A stretch of 64,000 nt of DNA, from NCBI GenBank assembly GCA_019055375.1, contig JAHQIW010000807.1:248001-312000 (forward strand), read 5' to 3'. The notes under the pieces were generated by a model. It made no database searches. It was not told where the DNA came from and saw only the letters and a program-made list of their open reading frames with translations. The DNA is from Parelaphostrongylus tenuis. Taxonomy: Eukaryota > Nematoda > Chromadorea > Rhabditida > Metastrongylidae. Below are positions 833-64,000 of this stretch, in pieces (position 1 is the first letter of the stretch; each line of letters opens with the position of its first letter). The position numbers were made by a program, and so were the translations under genes.

Positions 833-914
833 GTCATCGAAGGTTCCAATATAGCTTTTGAAGTGCAAATGAATTCCGTACCGAATACACTCTATCTCTT
901 CATGGGAGATGGAG
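833..914 (+). CDS. bbs-7 / osm-12: BBS7 exon 1 of the window (propeller blade)
   Basis: This exon follows a TTGTTCCAG acceptor and ends phase 1 before GTATCC. It reads VIEGSNIAFEVQMNSVPNTL at its start, matching the VLQGSDVMYAVEV...PTVLAL stretch of vertebrate BBS7. It starts in phase 0, so a further exon must lie upstream. No convincing preceding exon was found in bases 1-832. Confidence 0.9.
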
Positions 915-25450: not shown

Positions 25451-25691
25451 CCTTCGAGACGCCTTATCAATGTAGTGAAATCAATGTGCGCAGCAATTGC
25501 ACTGTTTCTGTATTCAATTCATTCTATTCTACCTTTTGTAGAAGGTAGGAACGTGCACTTTTAGTGCCTTTTCATCGATTTCTGCTTATAATTTCCAGAG
25601 TTCTTCAATAGATATTTGCTTAAATGTGTGTTGCTTCAAAAGAAAGCCGTTCCAAAAACATATTTATTGCGAGTGTTCTAGAAAACTTTAA

Positions 25692-37990: not shown

Positions 37991-38148
37991 GGTCATAAAA
38001 GTTGCTATCAAGGAATCGCTTGCGTACTACCGTGGACTGGAGTATGGATTAAGGGCGAATGGGAATTCAACATAACTCAGCAGTCCCTTGGTCCGCTTGG
38101 CTCCTGTCGGTCGAAGCATAACGATCAGTACCTGCTTAGCAGTACCAC
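37991..38148 (+). CDS. Extracellular gene exon a (DUF7044-like start)
   Basis: It lies between CTCCATTAG and the strong donor GTGAGT. It contains CVLPWTGVWIKGEWEF, an N-glycosylation site (NIT), SLGPLGSC and NDQYLL. Cys and Trp spacing resembles the opening of DUF7044 proteins. An alternative acceptor (ATCAAG at 38012) would shorten the exon. It ends in phase 2. Confidence 0.7.
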
Positions 38149-41100
38149 GTGAGTGTAAACAGTACTATGAATGAGCGACTCAGTAAAGATTCCGTATAGA
38201 ATAATCCACAACATGGTTTTCTTTTTCTGGACCACAAAGTCCAGAAAGCGGCACAACAATGTAGACTGATTTGATAACATCCTGAAATAAAAAAATGGAT
38301 GTTGCTTCTAAACTTAATGATGATAAACTCATAAAAGTATGTCTTTTGCTTTCTTAGAGCACCGCTTTTGTTGTTTGCTGAGATCATTTATTTCAGAATT
38401 TTTTATTTTCGGAGAGGTCTCAACATAGTCGATTGGAAAGTATTGTTTGTTTGAATTGTTCGCTACCAGTAGAAGAAGAAAGTGTAGAATCTACTAAACT
38501 TTTCCAATCGTCAACCGCTTGTTATTCACACTGAATTGTTACTGGTTTTCATTTCAGAGTTCGCGGTGAGTGCTACCGATGTGTCATCGTGTTTCCTGTT
38601 CACTCCAACGTTTTACAATACAAAACCAGTAGGTGTTTTTCAAAATATAGAATTCTCCCATTATTACTAAAAATGGTCTATGCCATTTTGAAAAGCTCGT
38701 CACAGTAGATCAGTGGCACAAAGCTCTTAGGTTTCAAATCAAAATCAATTTTTACTTGATTGATGGCTTAGCCACTTCTGGGTAGCGATGAAAATAGTTA
38801 CTTGGACAAATGCTAAGCTGTATTCAAATCACTTTTGTGAAAGTGAAAATTTTTTATAAGCATCGAAGTGACTAGTGCTCTCCATCAGTCGGTGAACAGC
38901 CAACACAGCTATTAAAAAAAAAAAAATCGACCTGTAAATCAAGCTGTCGTTCATTGACTGGAGAACGATTTTGCCTTGTTGACTGCATAATTAGTGATTT
39001 TGTAGAAGTCAAATGCAAGCGATTAAACGAGCTGAATGAGGGTTTCATTCTCTCTGAACATTGATTCTCTACATCTCGATGGCCTTGGTATTGTAATCAC
39101 TTTTCATTGAGATTTCGGTTCAGATCGATAGGCTCTCTAATTATGAGAAAACTTCGATTAGTGTTGAGTGTGCACCCGAATTTTTAAATGTGTTTTGAAT
39201 GTGTTATATCCATAGTAGTGCTAAGCGAAAATTCAGCGAAACATTCTTCGGACTCTATAACAATTCAAAACGCGTTTGAGGCCTCCAGAGGCCCCATTGA
39301 GAGTGATCGCTGTCATATTTATCACGCTGAGTGCAGAATATGCTCTCTAGAGGATACAAGCAATTTTGCACTATCAATCTCACTACTCTACGGATATAGA
39401 AGTTATGGTAAAGGTCCTTGTGAATCATAAGTGTGCGGAAATGACCACCAGATATTATAAATCAGTAGTTCTTTTTGCTAAGCAGTTCCGAAGTGTTAAT
39501 AACAGCATTTACTGAATTTCAATGATATAATGCAATAATAAAAAGGACAAAGGATAAAGCTCTCGGCGTTGATCAATCCCTGAGGGATGCGCCATGCATC
39601 CATCTTCAATTTTGACTTCGTTTAAGGTGATTGAATGCATATCTGGGCCTTTACAATGACTCGCGGTGGCCTCCCGCTGAACCGAGTCAGTGCTGCTTGT
39701 CCTCCCAGATAAGTCTGAGACCTGTCTGGTACTAATTTACCGATCCTGGAGGGATGGATGACTTGGTGAGCTATGAGCGCGAAATCGAACCATCAATCTC
39801 GTCTGCGACGCAGGGCACCTCTAATCACAACGCCACATGCGCTCTTTCACAGTGCAATAATACAGTCTACTGATGTAGCACAAACTATACAATAATCGTA
39901 CAGTAGCTAAAACGTTTGGACAAATCGCCTTCTTCAGAGCCGTTTAGATGTTTACGGTCTACAATTCTTCACTGAAGAATAGCCGCTTGGAGTCAGTGTA
40001 AGAGTGAGGTTTTTTTTTCGAAGAAATCACATGAGAGCAGCACCCATCACTATGAGGTGATATAAAACTCAAGTCATATCTGTCCAAAAAAATCTCTCCC
40101 TCCAACTGACTTGCACCTAAACAAGTTCATGACTTCTGAAAAGCAGTCAAATCTGTGGTGATGATCAATCGGAAATCATTTTATTTGACCGCCTATTGCG
40201 GTGTTGTGATGTTACAATAAACCCAATGATGTAGAGTGGTGTGAAAAACGTTTGCGTCAGCCAGGACTCGAACCTAGATGTTACTCTTTCCGAGAGCATG
40301 TGCTAAACCGTTGCACCACCGACGCTCGTTTTGCCACTGCACTCCTTCTACGCTACAACGTGTTATCTGTCAACAGCCAACCGCCGACGTTGTGGCGGGG
40401 CAGTCATTATCGACATTGACCCCACTTTCTTTGGTAGTGCTTCATGGTGCTTCAGATGCCTTTTGTGAAGCGATAATATTTTCAGCTTCCAAATATCCGC
40501 ATAAACCGTCTTATACTCATATCCGGTACATGCCTAGTTCATTTCATAACTGCTTATATTTCGTAACTTGTCCTACGGTGTAGGAACAATTTAGCATCGG
40601 ACATTTGGTTTTGTAAATTCTATGAGATGACAAATGTGCTTTTGGTCCTTACGCTATTATTGCGCAATAAGAAGTCGGTAGCCTAATGTAACGTAAGAAA
40701 AACCGTCACAAGACTGAATATGACTAATTCGCATTTGCAGGCGTATTTCTGAAACGGCTGGTCATCAGGAAATAAACTTGAAACTTGCAACGGAAGCGAA
40801 GGGAAATGAGCTTGCGGGAAACGGTTTTGGTACTATAGTGATTCAATGAAAATCAGATTACCACAAAGAATGATTGCTTTGGAAATGTTATACCTAAAAC
40901 TTGGATATGATTATTGATTTTTTGCAAAGTGGCTCAGAAAACAGTTTGTTTCATCTATTCCTAGCTAGACTTTGATGAATTTCCATCGGATCACAAACGA
41001 TCTCTCAGTTAGTCAAAGTAAATGGTGACCAGTAATTTTACCTTCTCAGAAAGTTGAATAAACACAGAGACTTTTTCATTTTCATTAGTCATTTTCACTA

Positions 41101-44100
41101 GTAGACTTGAGCCATTTTCTGCATATAATCATCAATTTGCAAAATTTCCTACTTCGACGCAATTTGTACTAAATTTATAAAAGCTGTATATTACCAGATA
41201 TTGATAGGAGTACTTTTCAGTTTACCATTGCTATAGAATGGACCTCAGCATCTTGTCTCCATTTTCAAGAAAAAGATTCATTCACATTAGACGTGTTTCA
41301 TTCTTCAAGCGTAAAACTTTAGAAAATTCTAAAATATGGAAGAAAAAATTGAAAATTATAGAGTCAAATGGTAATCGAAATTGTAGACTAGGAGGTTTCC
41401 ATCATGTGATAAGGACGTTGTCGATTGCAGCTGCATAACAACTTGCCCTTTAGAGCTTCAAAATGCTTCTAGCGCCGTGAAAAGTAATTTACTGAAGCTC
41501 GAAAGTGATGATTTTACTCAAAGTTAATTCAACAGAAGGGCGTGATTTAACTGGATTTGATTCCGTGTTTACAAAATTCTTGTAAATTCCATAACTTTTC
41601 ACTGAGAAGTTTTGCTACAAATCTCCAGAGCAGCGATTCTTCTCTGCCCCATTGCTATCGTAAGTGAAGAGGAAATTGAGTTTATCTCATCCATCTCAGC
41701 AGCTATTCCTATAAATAGCATTGTAGTGTCTACGGAACGTTCAGTGTCGTGTCCGCAAACGTGATTGGCCAAACAGTAAGAATGTTGTCTTTGACCTCTT
41801 TGCTGTTTGAATAGATTGACTTCTTCAAAGTTTCCGTAGTTCAGCTTGATGTGAAGCTTTTACTCAAACCATTGGAGTTAATTTTCGGGAACGGACAGAA
41901 ATATTGTTGACTGCGATGCCAAGTAGTCACAGATTTCTTATTAGAAAGGTTTTTAGCAACTATGCTTTCTTCGTGTTTTTGTTAAATATAGGTTTTTAGC
42001 CTTGAAAAATCGGTGCATAGTTAATAGATGGAAGATATTTATGGAAACTTCACTGACCATTTGAAATAAAAACTGTAAAAGCTGTAGAGAAAACGCTAAA
42101 GCATAAGCCGCCTAAAAAACTAGTGAAAACTTTTCAAGAAGAAAATGTTGAGCATCGAATCTTCTATTCGAAATATCTCATCACTCTTTTCTTCTCTCTT
42201 GGGTTTTCGTCGCTGCAATTCTCAAAAACAGCTTAGACAGTTTACTGTTTAACACCTTGACGAACAGCCAGTCACGTTGTGACTGGATATTGCATTGAAT
42301 TTAGTATTCACTTCATATTCAGCAAATTTAAGGTCGCGGTGAATTGATTTCGCTAGGGTCATGGTTGTATCTTCCATCCACAAAGTGGGAAATGAACCTA
42401 AGAATGGTTTAAGGTACTGAAAACATGGTTCTAAATGACAGTGAGGCCCTAATGACCGGAGCGTGGATGTCGAAATCTATGCTCACAGCTCCCAAAGGTT
42501 TAACATAGCATGTGAATGGCTCAATGGAATGGTATAAATTTTTGAAAAAATTTCCAACTGTAACACGAAAATAGTCTTTTTGCATTTTTATTTTCATGTG
42601 TAATCAATGTAATGTAGTTCGTTTCAGCTCAATGTATCTTCGATTCGAGCATGACCATCGACCGATGTCGGCATCATTTCAGTGGCGATGCATCGATGCA
42701 CACACTTTTCAGAAGTAAGCCCGCGATTATTTAACTATTTTTTTATATTTCCCTTTGAACTAGAGACGTCAAAAACCATTGCTTGATAGGACGACCTATC
42801 GACAATTTTATGAGTACGACACTCCTCATTTGTGAATACTTCAAAGGCCGATGAAGATGAGTTATAGGTTTCTCATCAATACTCTTTTATTACTATGGAC
42901 GCTACATCTGTGTAGGGGTCCTATGATATTTAAATTAAGGTCACTTCTTTCTACGACTTGAACTTAATTTGTAATGGAAGTCAGTAATTCCAATTAGCGC
43001 TTTTAAAAATCACAAACCTTTTTCCGTAGCGCACAAATATCCCGCTTCGCCAAGATAGTATTGTAATATCCATGACTTTCCAATATAAATACAAGTCCAA
43101 ATTTTTGCTTTAGCGCTCATAATTCGGTCATAAAAATAAGCAAATGAACCTCATTTCGTCTAGCAGGACACGATGGTGTTCTCTAATGAGCTGCTTGTGT
43201 ATGCGACAGCTATTCTTTGGAACTCCAAAAATTAAAATTTCACCACTAATTTCTATTGAAATTAAACTTTTAATATTTTCAACTTGGATGGAATACTGCA
43301 TTAAAGGTACATATAAAATTGGTGCGATATTAATGCAAGGTTCCTTCTATAAATCTTGAAAATACTGAACTTTCGAGAAATTATCAGTAGTTTTCGTGCA
43401 CTCAGCTTCATCGTTCACGGATCTATGATGATCCAATACTTGTATCACTACTACGGCCTCCCAAAAATCTCTATATCATATCTGGTAAAAGCCTTCTGAA
43501 GCTTTCTGGGACAAAAAATCAAATCGATATATTCTGAAGCATTCTAGGCATAAAACATAGTGTATATCAAAAACTATCAGATAACTCAGGTGAAAAAAAA
43601 AGCTCCAGTATCTTCCGGTTAAAAAAAGAATTATTAGATAGCTCATCTATGGTCTCCATACTGACAAATTCTATACCATTTCTTGTTAACAATTTATTTT
43701 TCTTCAAGGAAAAAGTCAGAACATTATCATCTGAAATGTTTTTTTTTGCGACTATTTTTCAACACATGAGTGCTCCGACATTGACCTCGGCTCGTAAATC
43801 GTCGGTTTTCTGGCGCTTGAGATGCACGGCTAAAAAGAGTGATAATGGAGACGAAACGAGGAAAAAAGTGCTCTGTCTGCTCACTTACATTGTACATCCA
43901 TTAAGTCATCGTTTGAAATGCGAAACCGTCTCAAGAACGTAAGTAGCTCCGGCAGATGCATTAGCAGAGGGCCTTATTGATCAGCTCATGGGGGATGCAA
44001 TATCTAAGAAATGTACTACCTGTGGGATGCTGGTCGAAACAGAAATTCATGAAAACATACTGTCGCGCTGTTGGTATATTTAATACTATGGGTTCTGCTT

Positions 44101-47100
44101 ACATACTTAGCTAAGTAATTGGGAAGCCGAAAAAAGTACGGATCGATTCACTTAATCCGCTCTATTCACCACTGTGGTATTTATTTATGTATCTAGGTAA
44201 ATAAGGAGTAAGATGCTCAGAAACTGCAAATTATCAAAAAGAATTCAGTAACGTGATACAGAAGCAAACTGTGATATAGCGACGTGAAGAATTACAAAAT
44301 TCATCATTAACATCTTTCTAATGAATGCCCTCCTCACATCTCCAAGTTATTTTCTAACGAAAATACCCGTAAAGCGAATTATTGGGTCTGCTCATACGTT
44401 TTAGCATTATAGAAATAAACACAAATTTTTGAACCAGAGCTAATCAAAAATGACTAAGAACACTGTCCAAAGTATGCGCCATCAGCCTGAACACATTTCT
44501 GCCATCTCTCAGGCATTAAATCGGTAACGCTTTCCTCTGAATTTTCTAGGCTTTCTTTTGGCACCAAATTTGTCCATAGCTGTCGCATCATGGCCGCTCA
44601 ACGAAGCCTTTATCGCAAATTGCTGCTTTACTGTTACGATTTGAGACGCGATGAAGAGAGCGCCTTTGAGAAAGACATTATCCATGCAAAGGCACGATGA
44701 TTTGTGTTCAGGCTAACAGCGTTTCAGTTTTTTGCTGAGTTTCACAGTGAAGTCATAGGGCTGTGATACTGCAAGTACGGGCAAATTTGGTACAAAAAAA
44801 AAGCTGAGAAAATTTTGCACAAAGTGATATTGGTTTGCTGCCTGAGAAATGGCAAAAATGTGTTCAGGCTGATGAAGCATACTTTGAATAGTGTTGTTAA
44901 GCGATTTCAATTACTTTTGCTTCATAAATTTGGTGTTTGTTACTCTGATGCCAAGACTTATGAGAAGACTCAATATTCAGTGGCCTTGCTCTTTGAAATA
45001 AATAAAGAACTGTGTAATCCATAAAGTTGACCGTAGGCTAAATATACAATGAATGCGAGTTTTCCGTGCCACCACTGCATTGTTGCATCTGAGATAATTT
45101 CCCCTCTAGTGAGATGAGAAGATTCATTGATTGTCTCATGATTTCTTTTACATTTTAAGACTTCTCCCAATTTAGTTTTTATTCTTTGTGAAAATCAAAT
45201 AGCGAGCAATATAATCGCCATTATGGTTAATGATATGTAACCATGTGTTGAGAAACGACTGAATGTCTTCCTCCCAGAACGAATGAGGCTGTCGGTCAAA
45301 AAATTAGGTGAGGTCACTTTGCTGATTGTAGTCCCTGAATTTTTGCTTTCGCAGGTGTCGCTTTACGGTGCGGAAGAGATGACAATGCGATGAAACAATA
45401 TCAGGCTATAGGTGGATATGGTAACGTGGCTCAGCTTAGTTTCCCTAAAATGTGGCGAGTGGGCTTAGCAATGTGCTGCCTCATGCGTCTTTTTTTTTAG
45501 CACAGAAACTCTAAATCTCTTCAGGCGTTTCTTTCTCATTACCACGACCAATTTCCGAGGTTGCTCTCCGCACATCAGCGTTAACTGTCTGTTTGTTGTC
45601 AAGCAGTTCCTAAAATGACATGACTCGCCGATGCCAGGAAACCTAGTGCACAATCCTTCAAATATGGAATTTGGGTTTTCGCTGAGCTGCGAGTCTAAGT
45701 GTTAGTAACCTGACCTAGTATCTTCATATCCTACCACTATCTTAGTATTCTGTTCCCTGAATAAGGCTATTGAAACATTCTCCAACATATTATGGCCTTT
45801 CGGCAATATTCCGATTTGAAATGGAAGAAAAGCAATAAAACAATAGTACGAAGGAGATTATAGAACACATCAATATTCGAAAGTGTAGCTATCATGTTTC
45901 TTCCCAAATAAGATCATCTATGCAAAGGAGATGTGTTTCATTTGTCACGATGACCATTTCTGTAACCTTGATATAAAGGGTAAATACAGTGGTTCACTGT
46001 TAGATTGAAACCAGTTTGCACAAAAGCAGTGCCTTCTCAGTGCTCAACGTTACGGCGCCGGCGTCTTCTTCGAGATGATACGATTAGTTTCTTCACAATG
46101 AAAGTCGTAAGTTAATAGCAAAGATAAATGTGGACATTTTAGTTTGCTAAATAGCTAATCTACAATTCGATAACAGCACAGCGAAACAAGTTATTTGTCA
46201 AACAATGTAATCTTTTTGATTTTGAAACGTTCGCGCTGTTCGAATTATAATGTTTCACAAAATTCGATGCAAACGCAGAATTAAGGCCAATGAAAAAATT
46301 AGATACTTGTCATTACTGGTATTATAACATTTGTAAAAAAATTGTGAAATATATTTGTGTCTTACATCTAAAAAGCATATTGTATACTTAACCATTTGTC
46401 TTATGATAATTTAAATAATTTAAATAACAGATTTTAGTATATCTAAATGAATGTTGCGCTCAAAATCGCTCTGCTTCAAGAGATCAATCGTTCCGCTTCA
46501 TGAGTTTAAACGTGGGCAGAAGTTAGCGGAGGAAACTCAAAGTGAAGCAAGGCGTAGCACCAGAAATGAGCGCAAAAACGCGGAGCACACAGCTGCTGCA
46601 TGAGGTTTCATACCGCAGACGTAAGTTTCCATAGAGGATCGATGTAGACTCTCTAGAGATTATCTGCGGTGTTGTTGAGGCTAAGATGCATAATTTGACA
46701 GTTGCTCTTCTTCCGGAGCAAACTAAAGAGGAGAAAATCATGGTGAATGGATGCCGTATGGATTTAACGAGTGATAACTAGGTCGTCGTCACCATGTCCG
46801 TTCTGTGGTTTTTCATCACAAGAAAAACGGATAGTTCCTCCTCGATCGCATTATGGGATACTGTGAAAATTGGATCGTGTATGTCAGTCAACGCTGTTCA
46901 GTTTTGAAGATAAATTCGATAACAGCTCTTAAGCATTTTCCAAGGTTAAGTGATATCACAATTTATAATAGTGGTAAACCTTTTTACTAGATTTTGGACC
47001 GCTCAAACAAAAAGAGGATGGTCACGAAATGAATGAATTGCACGAAAAACGCAACGAATTTAATTAGGCAAGGCCAACAGAAGGGTTTTTGTCAAAATGT

Positions 47101-50100
47101 CTAGATTGCTATACTCTTGCCTTGATTAGTAAAGTTCAAAACATCAGACGAATAATTCCACTTGAGTGATGCTGTTAGAATCACTGTTCCTAAATAAACC
47201 TAATATCTATTATGGAAAAAAACAGACAGTGGCTGAAAGGCTTAACATTTTAATTTCACTTACAGCTTCAGTATAATTGTGTTTATTCTCAATTCGCGCT
47301 CCCCAGATCAATGCCGTTGATGATTGATTGTTGATAGTAGCAATGAAATCAGAACATGATTAAGAGAAAGGCACAGGGAAATCCTGTGTGTGAAACACAA
47401 GTGTTCTCATTCTGTTACATTGTTAAAAAAGTTTTTTTTTTTCAAAAAATAGTGAGTTAGCGCAGTAACCAAGAATTTGAGCTGTCTAGTGATTACTAAG
47501 AATGCAATGGGAAGTCGTTGTCCAGAGAAAGGGGTCCTTTTTTCATTTGTTCTTCGCCAATAAAAGAGAATTTTTTTTTCTGCTAGGTTTGAAACACAAA
47601 GCACTTTTCCTACACCACCCTAATTGGTTGGAAGAAAAGTTTTGAGAAAATGCTTGTATAAAATTTATTTATGCATCTATTACATCCGAACAAAGACAGA
47701 ACTAATAGTCAAAGTACTTCCCTTCAACTTCATGCACTTCGTGCCGCTTCTTCGGCAAAAGATCGATTCCGCGCGCATAAAATTCTGATTTCTTTTTGTT
47801 GAAGAAAGGAATGACCGAGTTGTTGAAGAAGGATTTTCTTCAATCGCTTCAAGCCAGCTTGAAGATAAACTTCTTTTGGACGACCTGAACGCGGCTAATC
47901 TTCCAAACTTTCTTCACCTTCGTCGAACTTTTGAACCAGCTGTGCACCGTACTTTTGCCAACTGTGTCTTCGCTCCAAATCAGATTGATGCGCACACTTG
48001 CCACCGTTGCATCTGAACCCAACAACCATTCGTGCATCATCAACAGTCTAATTTGCTCGCTTGTTAACTCAATCTTGAAATAAGTAGGTAACTGATATAC
48101 CAATCAACGCGGGAGAATCAAATGAGCCCCAAAAAAAAATTGCCGGCAACCAAAAAAAGTTACGAGCATTTTCTCACAACTTTTTTCCAACCCATTGGAT
48201 CTACAATATCCCCTAATTTTGAACCTTGCACCATCTACTGCTTTTACCATACAAGTCCATGAAAATTCGAAACCGTGTTATCAAGAACGTCATAGATGTT
48301 TTTCTAGGACGTTTGCAGCGAAACTGATTAATCAATTGAAGACTATGACAAGATCAATATTTTTCAAGGAGATGCGCCTCCAATTCAGTGTCCGATCGAA
48401 GCTCCACTCAACTTCACTTATCACACTAGTGGAGGATCTTGTAGCAGCCGAATATCTTCGATAACACGGTAAAAACTACCACAAAAACTTCAGTGACTTG
48501 TGCGTAACATTTACGAAACAGCTTGTTTAGGTGTTCGCAATGGGCTCGACTTTCGTTTCACTACCAAGCGTGTCCCGAAAATCCTACCAATGAGGCTTCA
48601 GGTATATAAGATTCTTTCAGATGTAGATAAAGTTCATTTTAATCGTTACGCTGTCTTATTTCCTGTCTTATTTCGAAACCAACTTACTGGAATTCTGGTC
48701 TTTGGGTTTTCTCCGTAATTATATGATTCTGAAAAATTATTTCTCGCCACAAATTCAAGAAACGATCCTCCAAATTTTTACAATTAGTGAGTAAGCTCGA
48801 GTCTTTTTTAGTCCAGCATGTCACTCAACCTAAAAACAAACGATTTTTACTTTTTGAGTGATGGATATAATCAAATGCAGCGTTTTTATTCAAAGATATG
48901 GACCGGTGTACTTCCATTAAAAAATGACGATAAACGATCTTATATGAAGTCACCATTATTCAAAGCACAAGAAAATCACTTAAGACAATGGAATGAGCCC
49001 ATTTCCTGCATTCACGAGAGTCTGCAATGAAAGTTTACGTGGTCACCTCCGGTGAAATGGCGCCCTGTCCATATTTGTGCACGAAGTAATGACATTTCCG
49101 GTGCCAGATTTCACGATGAAGTGGCTGAGTTTCAGCTTCATCTTATCCGCTATATGATTCTACTAGATAGAAGCAATGACGTTTTTATGATTATAAAGCA
49201 GATCAAGCGCATTTGTTGTGTAATATTTGGAAACATAGCCTCTTCAAACATTAACGGATTCTCAATCACGGAGTTTGCCCACGAATGATAGTTTTTTTTA
49301 TATGCACAGCTCCTGGGGAAATGAGAGATATTTAGAAGGCTAAAAAACCAGCATGATGACTAGTGCTTCAGTTCAAAACGTAAACTATTTCCAGTCATCA
49401 ATTAGTACTGAGTGATTCAATTCGTCTATTCATTCGAAAAAAGAAAATTCAATCCATGATGTTGATTAATCAGTGCAACAACTACTGGGAATATCTCTTC
49501 CCCTAAAATACGAATGAGAATGAAGGAAAGTTCTTTGAATAATTACCAAGTACGAGTTGCCGGAATTATCAATAGGTCCGTTCAGTTTACGCGGCTACAC
49601 GATCTGAATTTACTTTGACTGTTAGGCCTTTATGGCGATTACTGTGGCTTGAACTCAAGTCATCCATCATTCATATTTGTAAGTATTGTAAGTGCCGTGA
49701 ATGGCTACCAAGAATGCTGTCCGAGTTCAGCACATAGCCAGGTAGAGACCAACTGGAACCCACAAAGCGGTGGTCTATAGTGAACACAACTGGAATTGAA
49801 GAAATATTAGCTTTCGTCTCGACAGATCTGTTTCTAACCTCTATACTACACTATCTACTCACGTCTTATTCTGAGTACAAAAAGCGATTTTGGCGAAAAG
49901 AAGCGAAAAGAAATCCTTTTAGAAATGCACCTCCGTGATCTCAAAAAAATTGCAGGGAAGTGAACAGGACAGATTTCATATGCCGTTTGCCCATGTTACT
50001 TATATAGCAGAGAAGATATTTTGAAAGTAAATACCTCTTTTTGGATAGATTAGAACGGATAATGAACCGAGGTGAACTACAGTGTTCTCAGTTGAATTTA

Positions 50101-53100
50101 CACTTCTCGAACATTTTGAAGCCTTCACAAAAACGCAAGGTGACAACGTAACTGAGAGCCTTTGAGACTTCTGAGCTTCTGAAAGTGGATACTACACTTA
50201 AAATCTCTTCAAAGAAAAACTCGAAAATCGTCACAAAAAGTAGTTTTTCAGCGTAATAAGCTCCATTCAATGAACACAAACACTGCGAATATACATACCT
50301 GCTTCTCGTTTTGATTCTGCTACGTCGTCAATGGAATGTCTGAAACGTTGAAACTGCTGCTTTTATTTGAAATGTCATTTTCGCCACACCAAGTGCAAGT
50401 GAAGGAAAAGGAAGCCAAAAACAGTTACATAATCTTTCACGCTATTGCTTCAGGACAGGGTAATTCGAGTTTTATCCTGTCCAGACCTAGTGGTACGCGT
50501 CTTGAACGGCAGTGAAGGAATTAGAACTCCTCACAGAGCACGGCGAATTTTGATATGTTGCCCAGGGTCCTGTCAGATGAGCCGTCAGTTAATCTAGAAA
50601 TGATGGGGAGATATGGACTTTGTCGATAAAGGCGCAGACATTGAGGCAAAATCTCTCGCAAATCATAAAGCCTTGAAGATTTATAGGGAGACTTACTTAA
50701 GGTCTTGTAAATGGGAGATAGGAATGCTAAGGTTTTGCGTGCTCCTAATGTGAATTAAGCCACGACTGATACCGCATTCACTTCACAGATTTTCTAGAAA
50801 AAGAGCATTCGACTTACGGAATGGATATAACATAACTTCAGCCAACGGGGTCTGGATTTTGGCGTTGAGTAACAAGCCTGTTAGCAGTTTGTCGACAATT
50901 GAAATGATATAGAATACGATTCAATTGAGGTGATGATCTCACTGAGAACATTGTGAACTCAAACGGCATCTGTTATTGCACGGTGTCTTAGCATGCTCTT
51001 TTTTCAGCCGAGTTTTGACTACATCAGCTAAGCAGTGGGTGGCCTTACGAAAAGGTTTAACTTCCGGCTCAAACTTGCAATTCACTTAATTCTCTAAGAT
51101 GTTTGGAACTTGTTTCCCACTTTCTTTGTTAATGGAAATATTGTTATTTCTACATTCTTATCGTGTTTGCACCTTGAACTTTCCTTTTCAAAGCCTATAC
51201 GATCTTTTGAATGTCTTCGAATATGTACGACGTTTAACAGAGGATGGAGGAGTGGCTCTTAGAATATGATTGGTCATCTCGTTTGAGTGGCATTGGCGGG
51301 CATCAGTTAGATCGGAAGAGCCGTTCGCACTGAATTAGCTCAGCACCACTCAATTTGCTCCATTCGGGGACTACACTTGAGACGCTTGTAATAACATCTC
51401 CGAAGTGAGATCCAAGAGGAACCATCAGATTGGGGTTTATTTTAATAGAGTTTGATGATTTAGAGAAGTCTCTCAATCCTCGCAATTTACCCCGTCTTTT
51501 GGGCTTCTCAAATTTGAAATAAATCTACCACCATCTGGTAATTATTCCAATAAAAAAAATCTCACAAACGCAGTTACGGAACTGAGCTTCTCCTTCTCAC
51601 CATAAGTTCACTTCACCTCATTTTATTATTTCATCTTCTCGAAAGACAATGATATAAAAATGGCGATCCGAAACTTACAAATACTGATGCGTACCCTCCA
51701 TTTTCAAGTGATATAAGTCAACTCATCAAAACCGACTTGATTTTTTTCGCTGCCTACAGTTCATTGAGAAAATTTGAAATGCTCTACTGCCTTAGAATGC
51801 TCTGTTCGATGCGAAAATGACATAGGACGTTTTGAGTATTGCTTCATTAATCTGGTCAGGCTTTCTATGCCGTTTTATAGCCATTTAGGAGCTATGGAAA
51901 CAAACGCGGTAACGGATTTACATTGAGTGTGACATTACTTTCAGCCATTCATCAATTTCTTCCTCAGTGTCATTGATAGACGAAACATAGCAGTCCAACG
52001 TTAGATGAAAATTCCCTACAGACCTGAATTTTTAAACATTTCTTCAAGGTATTCTGTTCAAAATGGATTCAACCACTCTCGTAAGAACTTCTCCACTCCA
52101 GCGTTGTTCTGCTTCCATTTCTACCATTTTCAAAATGTGCTTAATACTGAGCATAATCGACTCAGAAATAGCAACAAGAACATCATGTGAAGAGTTTGAA
52201 CATCCAGAAGTATGTTTGAGACAAAAGACTTTTGATTTTTTTGAACACCATGTTTTCAACACGGAGCTCATGTCACGCAGTGGTTAGAGGTGCTCTACGT
52301 CGCACACTAATGTTCAAAAATGGTTCGATCTCGCGCTCATGCCTCACCAAACCATCCATCCCTCCGGGGTCGGTAAATTGGTACCAGACTGGTCTCAGAC
52401 TTGTCTGTAAGGATAAGCAGCGCTGACTCGGTTCAGTGGGAGGCCACCGCGAGTCATTGTAAAGGCCAGATATGCAATCAGTCACCTCAAACGAAGAAAA
52501 AAAAAATTGAAGACGAATACATGGTGCCATCCGGGGATTGGCCAACGCCGAGAGCTTTATCCTTTTATCTTATTTATGTTTTCAGTGTAATTTGTTTTTT
52601 ACTCTGAGTCTTTCAATATTTTCCCGTCTAATCAATCTCAAAGTCTTTTACATAAGTGCTTATCGCTTTTAGGACCATAAAACTGGGATTATAAGAGTAG
52701 AAACCTGCCGCTTTTAGGACCTTGAAACTGGGATTATAAGAGTAAAGTTTGTTAAGAGTTCATCACAGGAAAGCTATTATGTATAGAGAAAGCTGTATCA
52801 AATTTTGCTTCCAGTGTCTGAAATTGAATGCATTGCTTCATGGCACTCGCTCGGTCACATCTTCTTCGCTGCCCGAGTTGGAAACCGACGAGGGGAATCG
52901 TATCGATGTTTTGTGAGTTTTCACAGCCAAGCTTGACAATATTGCATCGTCTCGTTAAGCCATGGTGCTATTTTTCTGAAGCAGCATTTGAATTAGTACA
53001 TTTCTTACCGTATAAATATGCGCAGATTCATCTACGAACTGTTCTTCAGAATTATTTTTAGGGTGGAAAATTTAAGCTTTTAATGAGGTCTTTGATGGAC

Positions 53101-56100
53101 ACTCATACAGTGCAATACACGTGTCTCCGCCTTGCAGCCTCGTCAGTTGCACACTGCTCCTCGTCTGTGCCGAACCCTCTTGAGGGAGCCACCTTACATA
53201 GTAGTATCGTTTACAAAGACAATTCACCTCGTGTCAAATGAAAATTCACTTCACCCACGGTCAGCATATCACTGTGTGTCCAGTGACATCATCACCGGAC
53301 ATTGCAGTGAGAAACACTCGATTCCTCAAGGGTGATATTAATATTATATTACTGACAATCATTATTTGAGCCACGCATGTCAGTGGTCTGTCAATGAGGG
53401 CTGACTTATAGAGCCCGATACACGTGTTTTGATCTTGCGATCTCGTCAGTCGGGCAGTTGCCCTATCTCGTCTTTTGCTAATCTTGCTAATCAAATAATG
53501 ATTATCAGGCATATTGAAATTTGAGCTGTGGTCTTAAGAAAACACTCGAAATGAAAGATATGTTATATCAAACATACTAGCCACGAGCATTCGAGTGTAC
53601 AACACTCTGTGTTTGGTGAGTTCTTCACTGGACATAGATTGTAGAACGTACGTCGTCGCTAACTTATTGTGGGTACTGGGGCACCCACAGAGATTAGCAA
53701 AAGACGAGAAAGGGCAACTGCTCGACTGACGAGATCGCAAGATCGAAACACGTGTATCGGGCTCTATAAGTCAGCCCTCATTGACAGACCACTGACATGC
53801 GTGGCTCAAATAATGATTATCAGGCATATTGAAATTTGAGCTGTGGTCTTAAGAAAACACTCGAAATGAAAGATATGTTATATTAAATTACTCTTATATC
53901 CGACTTTTTGCAGTGATATGATGTCCCTGGAAGAAGCTAATTTACTTGAGAAGTGGTGTAACGTGCTCGTCGACGATACTGCTATGTAAGGGGGCTCTCC
54001 TGCAAGAGCGTTCGGCACGGACGAGAGGCACTGTAGAACTGATGATGCTGCAAGGCTGAGACACGTTTATTGCACTGTATAAGTTCCCATAAAAGACCTC
54101 ATGGAAGACTTGAAATATGCTGTCAGGACGTATAGATTTTGAGCGAGATCTCAAAGAACAGTCGAACTTATAGCTATTTTTAAGCTCTTTTTGACTTTAC
54201 CCATTTTGTGAACCGAGCAATAAAAAGACGTTCTAGAAAGTTTACTTAGCTCCGTTGCTACTAATTACTGGTTGTTAGATGAATACTGAATTTCAACGCT
54301 CTTTTTGATTTCCGCCTCGAAGAACGATTTGAAATATGTCCGTCCAGTCATGCGAAAATGATTGCAATCGGGAATGTGTCAACAGTTCACCGAACACGAT
54401 TTTATCGGAGCATCATGAAGGAGTTGGAAGATAAGCAAAGAACGGATAGCTTCATGCGAGGTGCTACAGTCATCTAAATATACTGAGTGGTACGCAAAAA
54501 CTCGATTCTCGTCAGGAATTAAACCCACTTTTCACTCATGCTGGGCGCGCGTGCTACGACAGTGTGATCCGTTATGTTATTAGCTGCTAGATGTCCGAGT
54601 TTTGAGGAAAAGCTTGAATTGGAAATTTTAGCCACAAAATTTTGTTATGTAGCCTGAATCTGAAGAGAAAGGCGGACGAAAATGATGTCATAATCCAACT
54701 TGCTCAACTTCTGGTCCCTCGTCAATAAACCATTGTAGTACAAATTTTTTGTGTTCAAATCAGTGCTGGTCGGTGATGTTAGTATTGTTGTTCTTCTCTA
54801 GTTTTCCCTCAATAATTCGCTCTTTTATTTTGTTCGGAGATTACATTCTGCATAGATACTTACTCTGCTCACTGCCGTACATCCTGTGAGAGATAGCACC
54901 TCATCTGATTGAACTGCATCTATTATTTGTCTAGTAGTTTACTTATAAACTTTTGATTGTCTTTTTGTTCTTATTTGATTTCTTCTTATAGTGTAGAGGC
55001 TTACTTTTTATATAAAAGAGCCATATCTTAGTGTAAAATTTGCAAGATTCATCAATTTCACACTAATGATTTTTCCTATAAATCTGGACTATAGCAGACA
55101 TGCGTTTGATGTCGAAGTTCAAGCTTGACTTTTGTAGTGGGTTTTCAAGTGAGTGACCCTCAAATACAGTCTTAGATGGTTTCATGTAGTAAACATACTC
55201 TCATCTGAATGCAGATAGCTATCAGCGCTCTGGTAATTACGACATCAGGGCGAAATGAAGTGGATAAACCATCTCAATAACTAGTTCTTTCTGCAGATCG
55301 TGGACCAAATAGGAACGACAGGTCGTATAGGGATATCAGCGGATGCGAGCTGTCAAGAACTTACACACATGGGAGCAGCAACGACCACACTCCACTATAA
55401 GCAAGGTACGATAGCTTCTAGAGATTCATTTGAAGTCAAAATCACATATTCTCTAATGAAGTCTATGAAGTTCACTTGGTAATGTGAAATTTTTGATGTT
55501 ATGCCAGATGAACAATCCTTTTTCGTGACTACATCCTGGAAAGTAGGTTTCTGATCCACAGTTAGAATCCACAGCGCTGCAGCTATTCTTTTAAGACATT
55601 GAATTTTTTGAATATCCTCTCAAAGTATAAGGAATTCAAAGGCTCCTGCCACTGATCAGTCCTATGCTCTGTGCATTCAACCTTATTATCGTGGAGGGGC
55701 TAAATGCATACCAAGCTTCATGAATTGCGATGATCATCCCGTGCATCATGTTAGTGCTCTTATCCTCCTAGGCAAGTCTGCTAGCATAACTTCAAACGAA
55801 TCTATGTTTGCTCTGGTCGCGGGCGTGAGACTGAACCAAGCAGCACACGTTTATTTCAGCACTTTTAGCCAGTGCGCAACACATATTCATACAGGTTCAC
55901 TAATGTTGTTAGCTATCTAGAAGCTCCTGCTGAAAGAAGTACTATGGAAATACTCTAAAGGGTCATGACTGCCGTAATAAAAGTGTTTTCAATACAACTG
56001 AAAATTTTGGTTTTTTCAGATCACAAAATTCATCCGCAGTGCGACTTCCCTGACTATATGCAAGCAGTTCTTGGGCCAGTGCGGCAGTCATGGGAATCGA

Positions 56101-59100
56101 TTGTAAACGGAAGGAGAAATGTTTTTCAGAATGGTTAGAGTTTTCCTTCATACATTATGCGCTATCAGTCAGTGTATTCGGAGATCCGATAGAATTTAGG
56201 CAAGAATTTCATATGGAGATTATTTTCCTGCTAACTCAATGCATTCTATTTTTATTTTTATCTTTGAAAACTAGCAAGATCCTTCATTAAGTCCTGAGGG
56301 ACGACGTGTACCAGCTCGGGTACACGATTGTTTGAAGGCCTTTTCCGCTGCAGAAAAGTCTTCTCTTAGGCATTTGGTAATCATTCAAATGTTCAAATCT
56401 CTACGACTCCAAAAAACTGTTCAACTTCAGAAACCTTTTTTCATTACGTTGTAACAGCAAAGATAAAATTATTTTTCACATTCCATCTACTTCATTTGCC
56501 CGAATGGGCCGCTACATGGCTTTCCACTAAAGTTTTAATATTCATCATATAGCCCAAATCTCGAGAATTTCCATGATGAAACTGATTTTTCAAAAGGTTT
56601 CCATATAACGCAGTAAAATCGAAAAGAAAATCATTTTTCACACCTAAAATGCTAACCCGCCGCTCGGACGTCGTAGGTGGTTTTTTGGTGATTATAGGTG
56701 AAGTTATCTCCATTCTACAACAATATCACCATTGACGTAAGAAGAGGGGTTCGACAAGGCGATACAATATCGCCAAAACTATTCACTGCCACCCTACAAA
56801 ACGTCATGCGAACATTAGAATGGGACGAAATGGGAGTGAAAATTGACGGTCGACAATTAAACCATCTTCGCTTTGCTGACGATATCGTTCTCATAACACC
56901 AAACATCAGCCAAGCGGAACGAATGTTGACTGATTTCGATAACGCCTGTGGAAAGATCGGTCTTCAACTGAATCTAACGAAAAGAATGTTCATGAGGAAC
57001 GGATGGGTTTCTAATGCCCCATTCACGCTCAACGGAACGACAAATTCCGAATGCTCCAGTTACATCTATCTAGGTCGTGAAATCAACATGATGAACGACC
57101 TAGCCCCAGAGTTGAGCAGGAGGAAACGAGCGGCTTGGGGAACGTTTAAGAGCATCGAAGATGTAGTGAAGAGGACAAAGAACATCCGACTCCGTGCCCA
57201 CCTTTTCGACTCGACAATTATCCCTGCCCTAACGTATGCAGCAGAAACCTGGTCGCTACGTAAGCAGGATGAAAGATCACTTGCCGTTATCGAACGCGCA
57301 GTCGAAAGGTCGATGCTAGGAGTATCTCGTATTTCGCAAATGAGACAAAGGATCCGAACTTCCGACCTACGTCAACGATCGAAAATCAGAGACGCCGTTC
57401 TACACGCCAGGATATCGAAAATAAGGTGGGCCGGACACGTGATGCACTTCAACGACAACCGATGGACGAGAGCCGTTACCGACTGGATTCCTCGGGACGT
57501 CAAGCGCTCTAAAGGAAGACCACTGACCCGTTGGTCCGATTTCTTCACGAAAGCGATGGAAGAAAGATATGATGCTCAGCGAATTCCTAGAGCAAGGAGG
57601 ACCCACTGGGCTACTCTTGCACGCTATAGGGAAAAATGGAAGAGTTGCTGGTACCCGCTCGAGTCACTCGACGATCAACGGGACGACAGGTGATACAGGT
57701 GATAGGTGAAGTTCATAACTCCGAGGTGTCTTGTCGTTGAACGAAAAGTAAAATATCACGAATGAACCTTCCACGGAGTTTCTTTGATCCAAAAAGTGGC
57801 CACTCCTCTTGATTTCCTTCATTTTTCAGTGGTAATACCACATCTTTGTACAAAAATAAACTTTCAACCTCTATTGTGTATTTGTATCGCCTATCTTGCA
57901 AGAGCGTAGCTTGAAAACACATCCTCTACAATTAACATCTTTAATAAAGTTTAATTTATGTGGAGGTATTTCTGATAAGTAACTCGAGTGAGTGAGTGTA
58001 GAAAGAGCGCGCGTTCATCATTGCGCATAATGCATTACTTCTCCTATCAGCATCCATATTCGAAAAAACGTATTTTTCGCTCCTTTTAGACATTTTAATA
58101 GTTATTCGATAACTTAGAACTCGAAAAATTGAAAGGTGTACTTCATTATTAAAAGGTCTCTGTACTACACTGTAACAGGGAAAAGAGTAGACACAGCGCC
58201 GAGTGCGAAACTCAATGATCTTTCAGCCGTAACAACACCTTAGAACGTCCTTTAAAAAAAAACAAGCTCTCATCGAGATTGCTGAGATTTGTGCTATCGA
58301 ATGGTTATTGAAAACCTGAATGGAAACATCGGTCCAGCGAGAGATGCTTGAGTGTGAAAGAAAAATTGTTACTTAATGTTAAGCGGTACAAATATTCTAG
58401 CCACTCTCATTCGCTGAACAGGCAATTTTCACAGAAGCATTTGTAGTGCGAAAGGGTAAATCTTTGCCTACAACTATAAGTCGTCAGTTTTTTAAAACAC
58501 CCTTTCATAACCCTGTGGCATCCAAAAAAAAGGTTTATTTCTCACTCACATTTCGCTTTCATTTTTACCACGAGTATAATTTGCTAGAAGCACAAAAAGC
58601 AGGTCAGCTTGTGCAGAATTTTCCATTGTGTCAAGATCACAGCGTTTTTATTTGAAGTTTCTGCCGATGCGGTGAAAAACCTCCTCAATAAAATAACAAT
58701 AGTTGCCTCAGTTTTAACGCATAATGGGGTAGATCACTGTCGACTTAAGCGATGGATCAGACGATTATCTTATTAACAAGTCGTTGCTGTGACTTGCCTT
58801 CACACTTTGTTCGGTTATGAACCTTTTCGGCGACTTTGCTCACCGGCCAACTCACGAGGCGGGGAAGCAGGGCAGGGACGGAACGACCGATTGCGTTTGA
58901 AATATTGATATTCAATTTGGGATTTTCCGCCACATCGTCAGCACCTTTAGATAAAAACGTAGAGTCTGATGCTACGGAAAACTGTCTGCACGCTGATATG
59001 CTTTTCGTGCATCCAGCGATTTATACGCATGGCAAAAATGAAGGAGAAAGGCGAATGAGAAATGAAATTTGATTCTGGATGCTACAGCGACATATAATGG

Positions 59101-62100: not shown

Positions 62101-63466
62101 TCCATGTTTGATTGAAGAGCTAAGGTGTAAACATTGTAAAGATTAGTACATCTCAATGAAAGACTGTGAAATCACGTCTAGTAATGATCTTGTATAATTC
62201 ACTTAGTAAATGCTGAGTTATTTGACCACGCACCAAACTAGGCGACAATCCGACCTATGATTCAGTGCATATGTTGCGCAAAGACTGGTCTTTTCCGCTG
62301 AAGCGTGATTAGATTAGAGAATCAGGATTTCGTTTAGCAGAACGCCATGGATTTGTCCGAAAAATCGGAGGTGTTTCTCGCTTCCACACTTTTGCTGGAA
62401 AATTTGGTAATGAAGATTTCCAATCCACTAAAAGCTCTAGTTTTCAATAGAGCAGAACTGTAGAAATTTATTTCATTTTATTTGAAGTTACTCCTCTTTA
62501 CATTTACAATGCGGCCTTCAGTATTTCTTGCATTCTATTCGTTTCTTCTCAATCATTCCACTGAGATCTTCAAACTTTTCACAAGTGGCTTCAAATGCTT
62601 CAAGGAGATTGTTGTCTTCTTTATGAGTGTCGTTGAATGGTGGTAGAATCGATTTTCATTTGAGGCTTGTATAGCTATACTAGAGCGTTTCTGCGTGGTT
62701 TTGAGGGAGTGAGTCAGAAGCAGACAAGTTTGAAATCAGTCTCGTAACCCAGAGAGAGAAGTTTAGTGAGCCCAGTAGGATCAATCCAGCACCATGCTTG
62801 TGATAAACTATATTAATACCACTGTTCTACTCGCGCCTGACAAACTGTGTTCATTAATTTGTGACGTTCTAACACGTTTGTGACGATTGAGGATCCATCG
62901 CCGAAATCCATCCCTTGGAAACGACACCGTGAATATCTGAAAACGCCCTTGCAAGGTTACGTCAGGAAACCAAGGTTACTATATGTTGTCCACACAACTA
63001 GTGACGGCGGATCATCTGAGTATCTAAGTAGGCGAGTATCTTACAACAACCAACTATCTACGTTGCACTTGTCTACTCTTGTAATTCCTGAATTACTCTA
63101 AGTTGTAGAAAAAGCAAGATATCCGTGAATGAGGGAAAAAATTGCCACAACGAATGTAAAAAATTAGAAGAAATTGTTCTTTAGATATTACTTTTATGAG
63201 ATGGAGAATGGCATCTGTAAAAGTCAAGTGTCATTTCTGACTACTGGAGCATTGTGGTTATGCATGAAACTACGGAAATGAGAAGAACACTGGAAAAGTG
63301 TGATCGATTGGATCTGGATTACTCGCTTGCAGGACACTGGATATCGTCATACAAAGGACGTAACGACTCAGTGTGGGCTTGCCTTGAGAGTCGTCGACTT
63401 GAACATCTCGTGGCCATTCGGGCACATGTTCGCCAAGGTTGCCAAATCGGCTATCAGTGCGTGCAG
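37991..63466 (+). CDS. Cysteine-rich extracellular protein, DUF7042-DUF7045-like, partial, at least 9 exons
   Basis: Exons: 37991-38148, 38558-38632, 42628-42714, 48369-48468, 48531-48601, 52815-52912, 55297-55405, 56020-56102, 63333-63466, continuing past the right edge. Successive junctions agree in phase except two (42714 to 48369; 56102 to 63333), where exons must be missing. Landmarks in order: W-x-G-x-W then GECYRCV and HSNVLQYK; IQCPIEAPLNFTY; FHYQACPENP; ECIASWHSLG then ESYRCF; ISADASC; QCDFPDYMQ; AHVRQGCQIGYQC. This order matches my memory of the ecdysozoan DUF7042/7043/7044/7045 secreted or surface proteins, whose function is unknown. The signal peptide and C-terminus were not seen. 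Exon identity is recognised by motif, not by database search. Confidence 0.75.
38558..38632 (+). CDS. Extracellular gene exon b (CYRCV motif)
   Basis: It follows ATTTCAG, completes the Thr codon from exon a, and reads GECYRCVIVFPVHSNVLQYK. The C-x-x-C and NVLQYK motif is the most diagnostic part of the family. It ends in phase 2 before GTGTTT. Confidence 0.75.
39546..39850 (-). repeat. Family B SINE-like repeat, full length
   Basis: The minus strand runs from a tRNA-like head (box A GCATGTGGCGTTGTGATTAG, box B GGTTCGATTTCGCGC) to the tail GCGCATCCCTCAGGGATTG, GCCGAGAGCTTTATCC and a short A/T-rich end. It lies in the 4-kb intron between exons b and c of the extracellular gene. Confidence 0.75.
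40178..40390 (-). repeat. Family A SINE-like repeat
   Basis: The minus strand has the box A-like GGTGGTGCAACGGTTTAGC, box B GGTTCGAGTCCTGG, and the family tail with CACCACTCTACATCATTGGG and the hairpin CCGCAATAGGCGG. It matches the 1.4-kb and 14.7-kb copies over about 200 bp. Confidence 0.75.
42628..42714 (+). CDS. Extracellular gene exon c
   Basis: It follows GTTTCAG and ends in phase 2 before GTAAGC. It reads SMYLRFEHDHRPMSASFQWR then CIDAHTFQ. The phase matches exon b. Homology is weaker than for its neighbours. Confidence 0.6.
44384..44985. mobile_element. Two mariner C-terminal ends in inverted array
   Basis: The minus strand at about 44384-44600 and the plus strand at about 44765-44985 are related. 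Both encode a mariner C-terminus: LMPERWQKCVQADGAYF on the left and LPEKWQKCVQADEAYFE on the right. Both end in related termini (CGTATGAGCAGACCCAATAA and CTTATGAGAAGACTCAATAT). The catalytic core is absent. The array lies in a long intron of the extracellular gene. Confidence 0.75.
45170..45680 (-). mobile_element. Decayed mariner transposase fragment
   Basis: Minus-strand pieces in the correct order for a mariner (Tc1/mariner cut-and-paste transposase): LLDNKQTVNADV near 45600, an HPPYSPD-like segment near 45390-45410, HLFRTVKRHLRKQKFRD, FFDRQPHSF, and FLNTWLHIINHNGDYIARY near 45200-45260. Frameshifts and stops interrupt it. Confidence 0.7.
47620..48200 (-). mobile_element. Internally deleted mariner element with inverted ends
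   Basis: The left end ATTGGTTGGAAGAAAAGTTT (47621 onward) and the right end, reverse-complemented AATGGGTTGGAAAAAAGTTG (to about 48196), are inverted repeats that continue through a GAGAAAATGC core. Minus-strand coding gives the N-terminal helix-turn-helix (about 48103-47880: EQIRLLMMHEWLLG, WSEDTVGKSTVHSWF) and a C-terminal piece (GIDLLPKKRHEVHEVEGKYF, 47709-47790). The DDD catalytic domain is deleted. It lies about 170 bp before exon d. Confidence 0.8.
48369..48468 (+). CDS. Extracellular gene exon d (CP-x-EAP-x-x-FTY motif)
   Basis: It follows TTTTTCAAG and ends in phase 2 before GTAAAA. It reads DAPPIQCPIEAPLNFTYHTS then GGSCSSRISSIT, matching the CPF-x-x-PF-x-FTY...G-x-C-x-x-P-x-S family signature as remembered. 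An N-glycosylation site (NFT) is present. The start phase does not match exon c, so an exon between them is missing. Confidence 0.78.
48531..48601 (+). CDS. Extracellular gene exon e (YQACP motif)
   Basis: It follows GCTTGTTTAG. Its first base completes the Arg codon from exon d and it reads CSQWARLSFHYQACPENPTN, matching the C-x-x-x-x-x-L-x-x-x-YQACP signature. It ends in phase 1 before GTATAT. The intron between d and e is only 62 bp. Confidence 0.8.
52262..52565 (+). repeat. Family B SINE-like repeat, full length
   Basis: The head is TCACGCAGTGGTTAGAGGTG with box B TGGTTCGATCTCGCGC. The body has GGGAGGCCACCGCGAGTCAT, an A-rich run, and the end GCCGAGAGCTTTATCC. It is the best-preserved + strand copy and lies in the intron before exon f. 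Confidence 0.78.
52664..52745. repeat. 45-bp tandem duplication
   Basis: CGCTTTTAGGACC begins at 52664 and again at 52709. AACTGGGATTATAAGAGTA follows in both. The second unit is slightly shorter. It sits 70 bp before exon f of the extracellular gene. Confidence 0.8.
52815..52912 (+). CDS. Extracellular gene exon f (SYRCF motif)
   Basis: It follows TTTGCTTCCAG, completes the codon from exon e, and ends in phase 0 before GTGAGT. It reads SEIECIASWHSLGHIFFAAR and GESYRCF, matching the E-x-x-C-x-x-x-W...Y-x-x-x-x-x...E-x-YRCF signature remembered for DUF7042-type domains. Confidence 0.8.
53081..54102. repeat. Nested palindrome with inner 78-bp direct repeats
   Basis: The outer arms 53081-53212 and 53969-54102 are diverged inverted copies (family E: GTGCAATACACGTGTCTC opposite GAGACACGTTTATTGCAC). 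The inner arms 53357-53484 and 53691-53818 are near-perfect inverted copies of 128 bp. A 78-bp sequence at 53491-53568 is repeated directly at 53806-53883 with no difference seen. The inner and outer arms also resemble each other (ACACGTGT...CTTGC...CTCGTCAGT). It is non-coding and lies in an intron of the extracellular gene. Confidence 0.85.
55297..55405 (+). CDS. Extracellular gene exon g
   Basis: It follows TTTCTGCAG, starts in phase 0 as exon f requires, and ends in phase 1 before GTACGA. It reads IVDQIGTTGRIGISADASCQ and ELTHMGAATTTLHYKQ. The S-x-DA-x-C-x-x-L pattern fits the segment following YRCF in the family. Confidence 0.78.
56020..56102 (+). CDS. Extracellular gene exon h (C-x-FP-x-Y motif)
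   Basis: It follows TTTTTTCAG and completes an Asp codon from exon g. It reads HKIHPQCDFPDYMQAVLGPV then RQSWESI, resembling the C-x-FP-x-x-(L/M)...W start of the next domain. The donor GTAAAC gives phase 0. Confidence 0.72.
56345..56660. repeat. Dispersed repeat family G copy
   Basis: GGTAATCATTCAAATGTTCA and CGTTGTAACAGCAAAGATAA match family G. A second unit starts near 56540 with CATATAGCCCAAATCTC. The RTE copy begins directly to its right. Confidence 0.55.
56697..57715 (+). mobile_element. RTE-clade retrotransposon, 5'-truncated copy 2
   Basis: The left boundary is at about 56697, and the 3' end carries the GGTGATACAGGTGATAGGTG-type repeat also seen in copy 1. The two copies are nearly the same across the overlap, and copy 1 reaches about 180 bp further 5'. 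It lies in an intron of the extracellular gene in sense orientation. The endonuclease and the first part of RT are missing. Confidence 0.92.
56698..57693 (+). CDS. RTE reverse transcriptase C-terminal two thirds, open frame
   Basis: The 331-codon frame begins in the RT palm: RRGVRQGDTISPKLFTATLQ, then FADDIVLI at about residues 59-66 (catalytic Asp pair), then the thumb and the RTE C-terminal region (KIRWAGHVMHF, DWIPRDVKRSKGRPLTRWSD, RTHWATLARYREKW, SLDDQRDDR at the end). The ATG is fortuitous because the true N-terminus is lost. The absence of stops suggests a recent insertion. It cannot retrotranspose on its own without an endonuclease. Confidence 0.9.
   Translation: MKLSPFYNNITIDVRRGVRQGDTISPKLFTATLQNVMRTLEWDEMGVKIDGRQLNHLRFADDIVLITPNISQAERMLTDFDNACGKIGLQLNLTKRMFMRNGWVSNAPFTLNGTTNSECSSYIYLGREINMMNDLAPELSRRKRAAWGTFKSIEDVVKRTKNIRLRAHLFDSTIIPALTYAAETWSLRKQDERSLAVIERAVERSMLGVSRISQMRQRIRTSDLRQRSKIRDAVLHARISKIRWAGHVMHFNDNRWTRAVTDWIPRDVKRSKGRPLTRWSDFFTKAMEERYDAQRIPRARRTHWATLARYREKWKSCWYPLESLDDQRDDR
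58070..58345. repeat. Family G copy with foldback-related right half
   Basis: It starts with CTCCTTTTAGACATTTTAAT and continues with AGCGCCGAGTGCGAAACTC, CAGCCGTAACAACACC and GTGCTATCGAATGG. These match the right arm of the 3.7-4.0 kb foldback, with no left arm. Confidence 0.6.
61890..62090 (-). repeat. Family D repeat: tRNA-Ser/Leu-like head plus codon-like tail
   Basis: The minus strand starts GGCGCCGTGGCCGAGTGGTT. After GGAGCCGAACCCC and CTCCGGCAGTCAACAAC it enters the tail shared with 19055-19170. The minus-strand frame 62156-61788 crosses it. It is the best-preserved head of the three family D copies. Confidence 0.6.
62341..62406 (+). other. Candidate exon of the extracellular gene
   Basis: It follows GTTTAGCAG and ends in phase 1 before GTAATG, the phase required by the exon at 63333. 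It would read RHGFVRKIGGVSRFHTFAGK then F. Its start phase does not match exon h (phase 0), so either another exon intervenes or the call is wrong. Confidence 0.25.
62523..62672. repeat. Unclassified dispersed repeat shared with 16.2 kb
   Basis: TTTCTTGCATTCTATTCGTT through GTCGTTGAATGGTGG can be aligned colinearly with 16200-16345, with many substitutions. No coding frame is conserved. Confidence 0.45.
63333..63466 (+). CDS. Extracellular gene exon i (GCQ-x-GY-x-C motif)
   Basis: It follows CTCGCTTGCAG and ends CAG/GTAAGA in phase 0. In the phase-1 reading it contains VWACLESRRLEHLVAIRAHV and RQGCQIGYQCVQ. AH-x-x-x-GCQ-x-GY-x-C is a remembered family signature. The phase-0 frame is also open, but it lacks this signature. 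Confidence 0.7.
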
Positions 63467-63699
63467 GTAAGAGTCACCTCCAGGTTACCTAAGGATATGA
63501 CAGGCACTGTTTGAACTGTTGAAATTCGAGAATAGCATTTCCAAACAAAAAAAGTTTGTCAAAAACTTCCTGATTCTCTTTGTGAAGTCTGCTTCAATTT
63601 AGTTTTCAGTATAATATGAATGAATTCTTTACTTACTGCTTTGAGCATTAGTTTGATGCTATAAATTAAGAGTGTTGAGCGAAATGCAAAGTCTTTCGT

Positions 63700-63815
63700 C
63701 ATCCAGGAGCTCAGCCACGTCTCGGCATACCGGGGTTCGAAATGTATAATCTACACAAATTTGCCACCACTGCCCCACTGGGACCACCACTTTGTTACCA
63801 CTCTTTTCTCGAAAT
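63700..63815 (-). repeat. tRNA-like repeat head, family A-related
   Basis: The minus strand has the family leader GAGTGGTAACAAAGTGGTGG and a box B-like TTCGAACCCCGG. A short sequence, GCGAAATGTATAATC, occurs at about 63737 and again at 63906. Confidence 0.4.
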
Positions 63816-64000
63816 GTCCTGTCGTAGCTGTCAACATCCAACATTTAACGAGTTTCATCTGGTAAGCACATATCGGTGTTAGACCCACCTACGCTGAGAG
63901 CAATGCGAAATGTATAATCCACATAAATTTTTTATTTATGTTTTTTTAGTAATGATATGGTGCTATTCTTAGATCTATACATGACATCATACCACTTTTA

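Follow-up and report, generated by a model that had tools for sequence, protein, structure and literature searches.

A DUF7042/DUF7043/DUF7044 family gene of Parelaphostrongylus tenuis and a candidate calycin-like fold for its domains

A 64,000-nucleotide stretch of the Parelaphostrongylus tenuis genome (assembly GCA_019055375.1, contig JAHQIW010000807.1, positions 248,001 to 312,000 of the forward strand), here called the window, carries on its plus strand a gene divided into small exons that, judged from its sequence, is an ordinary conserved member of the known DUF7042/DUF7043/DUF7044 family. A first-pass annotation had proposed that nine small exons between 37991 and 63466 spell one protein. 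Joining by hand nine exons in 38013-63466 and a probable exon 1 upstream, we obtained 10 exons with GT-AG introns, whose 981 coding bases encode 327 residues without a stop (Table 1). The nine exons do join into one open frame, and the junctions proposed at 38148/38558, 48468/48531, 52912/55297 and 55405/56020 are exact, with GT-AG ends. The end at 63466 also stands, whereas the first of the nine begins at 38013 and the probable exon 1 lies outside the interval. Open frames around exons 2-10 span 33 to 97 codons, a range whose upper end passes the ceiling of about 55 codons given earlier. The gene covers more than 38 kilobases (kb) with at least 10 exons, and its nine introns measure, in order, 12468, 409, 3999, 5654, 62, 4213, 2384, 614 and 7199 bases (range 62 to 12,468).

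All nine exons of the interval were matched at E 4e-9 or better by tblastn with the Necator americanus orthologue RB195_017004 (P0001) as query, exons 5 and 6 carrying one linked E-value. Reversed copies of seven relatives, used as a control, gave three matches at E ≤ 1 (best 0.33), none of them in an exon. Exons 2-10 are short, at 71-136 bases each, as would be expected of open stretches that arose by chance and were strung together by pattern matching; P0001 nevertheless matches every one of them while the reversed controls are weak, and chance is therefore excluded, a refuted reading to which we assign practically no weight.

The start exon probably lies at 25484-25544. Residues 1-21 of the Haemonchus orthologue match 25484-25546 at 57% identity (tblastn, E 0.027); the exon runs from ATG to GTAGAAG/gtaggaac in phase 1 and splices in frame to the acceptor at 38012, and the junction with exon 2 yields VEG-IAC, beside VEG-AAC in Haemonchus. 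Because an acceptor at 37990 (start 37991) runs into an in-frame stop (GGG TCA TAA) in the phase set by probable exon 1, we placed the start of exon 2 at 38013. At the other end, later residues of the relatives match the plus strand of 63467-64000 once only, at E 5.8, so the C-terminal third (the end of domain 3, domain 4 and the C-terminal tail) is taken to lie beyond the window.

In Pfam, where the curated cut-off is 27 bits for DUF7042, DUF7043, DUF7044 and DUF7045 alike, the joined protein scores above it for DUF7042 (PF23069; E 1.1e-30, 106.5 bits, profile 2-122 of 123), DUF7044 (PF23071; E 1.3e-14, 54.6 bits, profile 5-89 of 94) and DUF7043 (PF23070; E 1.3e-9, 38.7 bits over two stretches, the better one on domain 1), and a 314-residue version gave a nearly identical result. 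We assigned DUF7043 to domain 3 from P0001, in which it scores 51.8 bits with its best stretch at residues 249-357. The earlier identification as a DUF7042-DUF7045 protein holds for three of the domains, as nematode orthologues also confirm, but DUF7045 (PF23073) goes unmatched in the partial protein of the window, which stops short of domain 4, and reaches the cut-off in none of eight relatives scanned (13.7 to 21.7 bits in five, namely three of a first five and two of a further three; no match in three). Four of these five sub-cut-off matches have their best stretch on the DUF7042 region.

Homologue searches, each with its own threshold, yielded 22, 17 and 11 proteins (33 distinct identifiers) from strongylids, Heterorhabditis, Caenorhabditis, Auanema, Mesorhabditis, ascarids, Gnathostoma and filariae. 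P0001 is 80% identical over 327 residues, and the nearest relative is a fragment from Angiostrongylus cantonensis, identical at 92% across 230 residues, a closeness that by itself would suggest an Angiostrongylus-like worm as the source. P0033 (686 residues), which we take to resemble an arthropod protein, carries DUF7042, DUF7043 and DUF7044 at 23% identity over 347 aligned positions. P0001 and P0002 (Haemonchus contortus A0A7I4Y299) have the same domain order, DUF7044-DUF7042-DUF7043, and predicted lengths of 516 and 513 residues, whereas the protein here lacks the last third, outside the window. Public proteomes already contain predicted orthologues, labelled hypothetical or unnamed; the gene is therefore not hidden, as had been claimed, although "uncharacterised" remains apt. 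The four domain names and their Pfam accessions were found in no paper, and DUF704x domains in no fold assignment, within the open-access literature searched, which leaves outside most subscription journals and all preprints. P0002 bears the UniRef name "CUB domain-containing", for which Pfam lists no CUB at E ≤ 1. A link to Drosophila Lost and found was considered and dropped: the passages of PMC8205486 consulted give CUB and LDLa domains only, and the sequences were not compared.

Eight full-length relatives of this cysteine-rich protein (509 to 530 residues; 8 of the 33 found) form alignment A1, in which invariant columns were counted over the region in the window. Of the 101 invariant columns the window protein keeps 100, with R for K in the remaining one, and all 17 cysteines are in place; with so many invariant residues kept a relic is unlikely, and we take the gene to be intact and functional. 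Decay of the locus into a pseudogene, a mere relic of the family, would accord with large introns containing transposon remains, a weakly matched exon 1 and an acceptor at 38012 (TATCAAG) that departs from the usual TTTCAG, yet the coding bases run on without stop or frameshift and the invariant residues persist, which leaves decay highly improbable.

Table 1 Features of the window, with positions counted from its first letter.
Feature	Position	Strand	Content and evidence
Exon 1 (probable)	25484-25544	+	Start codon; hydrophobic N-terminus resembling a signal peptide, MCAAIALFLYSIHSILPFVEG
Exon 2	38013-38148	+	Domain 1 (DUF7044) start, GVW motif; P0001 78% over exon; DUF7044 1.3e-14
Exon 3	38558-38628	+	Domain 1, ...CYRCVIVFPVHSNVLQYK; tblastn and joined frame
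Exon 4	42628-42714	+	Domain 1 end, CIFDSSMTIDRCRHHFSGDASMHTLFR; tblastn and joined frame
Exon 5	48369-48468	+	Domain 2 (DUF7042) start, CPIEAPLNFTY; tblastn and Pfam DUF7042 1.1e-30
Exon 6	48531-48601	+	Domain 2, YQACPENP; tblastn and joined frame
Exon 7	52815-52912	+	Domain 2, ECIASW...SYRCF; tblastn and joined frame
Exon 8	55297-55405	+	Domain 2 end, GRIGISADASCQELTH; tblastn and joined frame
Exon 9	56020-56133	+	Domain 3 (DUF7043 region) start; assigned via P0001 residues 249-357
Exon 10	63333-63466	+	Domain 3, GCQIGYQCVQ; tblastn and joined frame
bbs-7 BBS7 propeller	~827-1087, ~1791-1925	+	Pfam
bbs-7 GAE	~11841-12002	+	Pfam
bbs-7 platform	~13427-13579, ~14337-14453	+	Pfam
bbs-7 hairpin	~15232-15327, ~18516-18641	+	Pfam, below cut-off
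LINE-like reverse transcriptase frame	6703-7560	+	RVT_1 1e-20
LINE-like reverse transcriptase frame	56698-57693	+	Intron 9
tRNA-Pro (CGG)-like gene	40253-40325	-	Intron 3
Mos1-type helix-turn-helix, weak match	47930-48058	-	Intron 4; E 0.0018, below cut-off; perhaps a mariner remnant
Inverted repeat	44422-44932		Intron 4; 75%
Inverted repeat with direct repeat	53346-53887		Intron 7; 139-base inverted repeat (96%), 206-base spacer, adjoining 82-base direct repeat (99%)
Inverted copies	39646-39793, 52320-52467		Introns 3 and 6; 148 bases, 90% complementary, 12.5 kb apart

Pfam scans for further genes covered the plus-strand frames of 1-38012 and the six frames of 43500-48301. A bbs-7 (osm-12) homologue lies in pieces at 1-18641, upstream of the DUF704x gene and on the same strand. 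The two open reading frames resembling those of long interspersed nuclear elements (LINEs) are near-identical by eye. Stretches near 1540 and 25700 resemble, again by eye, the transfer RNA (tRNA)-like gene of intron 3, and these copies suggest a tRNA-derived short repeat. The repeat structure in intron 7 looks like a small non-autonomous transposon.

Structure prediction was run on P0001 and on its C-terminal half, and the predicted P0001 structure consists of four small all-beta domains in a row. The best structural matches of predicted domains 2, 3 and 4 are lipocalin-, FABP- and avidin-type barrels, among them Tp0751 (5jk2), VtrC (5kew), FABP, streptavidin, SAHS, fHbp and TbpB, and predicted domain 1 shows a comparable succession of strands. 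Compared with the calycin-like barrels that predicted domains 2-4 resemble (Tp0751, VtrC, FABP, streptavidin and SAHS), the family here is cysteine-rich, has several domains per chain and gave 0.56 and 0.38 as its best E-values in PDB sequence searches. Counting against a barrel assignment, Foldseek searches of predicted models produced no hit with E ≤ 0.001, and viral models likewise yielded nothing at that level. The lipocalin first-strand motif GxW, a weak marker at three residues, appears in the window protein as GVW (domain 1) and GHW (domain 3). Among 22 aligned relatives, 17 have letters at the motif columns of domain 1 and 21 at those of domain 3; GxW lies close to the domain's start in 12 and 11 of these, respectively.

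Domain profiles were made from 22 relatives, gap-rich rows being dropped to leave 18, 20, 20 and 21 rows for domains 1-4. In profile-profile comparison, domain 2 against domain 4 stands out among the six pairs (probability 88%, E 2.9e-6, over only 20 columns); the other five reach at most 3.9%, and 12 of 12 reversed controls at most 1.0%. HMMER (matches listed at E ≤ 1) bears this out: all 21 domain 4 sequences are matched by the domain 2 profile (best 6.7e-7), and all 20 domain 2 sequences by that of domain 4 (best 4.3e-8). With the domain 3 profile, matches number 8 of 18 for domain 1 (best 6.9e-4) and 5 of 21 for domain 4 (best 1.1e-3), and with the domain 1 profile 12 of 20 for domain 3 (best 3.4e-3); the strongest reversed control, 2.7e-3, comes from the domain 2 profile run on reversed sequences of its own domain. 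Of the Pfam models, DUF7043 also matches domain 1 of the window protein, and DUF7045 weakly matches domain 2 in relatives. At the level of sequence, domains 2 and 4 are related, and an A-B-A'-B' history fits the data, with support for the B pair (2/4) alone. DUF7044, DUF7042, DUF7043 and DUF7045 could then be one calycin-like barrel present four times through a doubled two-barrel unit, and the family would be an ancient surface protein of ecdysozoans, built of lipocalin-like barrels in tandem, with a candidate role as carrier or receptor of lipids or sterols; because the 2-4 match spans 20 columns and the 1-3 match barely rises above other pairs, we hold this four-barrel proposal tentatively, at somewhat short of an even chance.

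With moderate confidence, we interpret the locus as an intact conserved nematode gene for a secreted, tethered multi-barrel binding protein. Its hydrophobic N-terminal start would direct secretion, the row of calycin-like barrels would bind a small hydrophobic ligand or a protein partner, and a hydrophobic C-terminal tail, either a glycosylphosphatidylinositol (GPI) signal or a single helix, would hold the protein to the surface of the cell or cuticle; in P0001 a predicted helix at 496-515 is followed by a single last residue. The hydrophobic start and the cysteines make it likely that the protein is extracellular. Tp0751, fHbp and TbpB barrels bind proteins rather than lipids, and this, with the prominence of cysteines among the invariant columns, speaks for the main rival, in which the barrels are a stable disulfide-braced scaffold only, a structural or adhesive component of the surface or cuticle with no pocket ligand, whose conserved loops make protein contacts. 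VtrC with bile salt and the FABP-type matches are comparably near, however, and we regard a pure scaffold as plausible though less than probable; a calycin-type binding protein ranks as most likely.

The gene itself is an orthologue of already predicted proteins, and the value of the finding lies in the reading of its fold. If that reading is true, a conserved family of domains of unknown function becomes a chain of ligand-binding-type barrels, and the barrel prediction, made on relatives, would offer a first testable idea of the family's role, the predicted small barrels being like those of carriers of fatty molecules.
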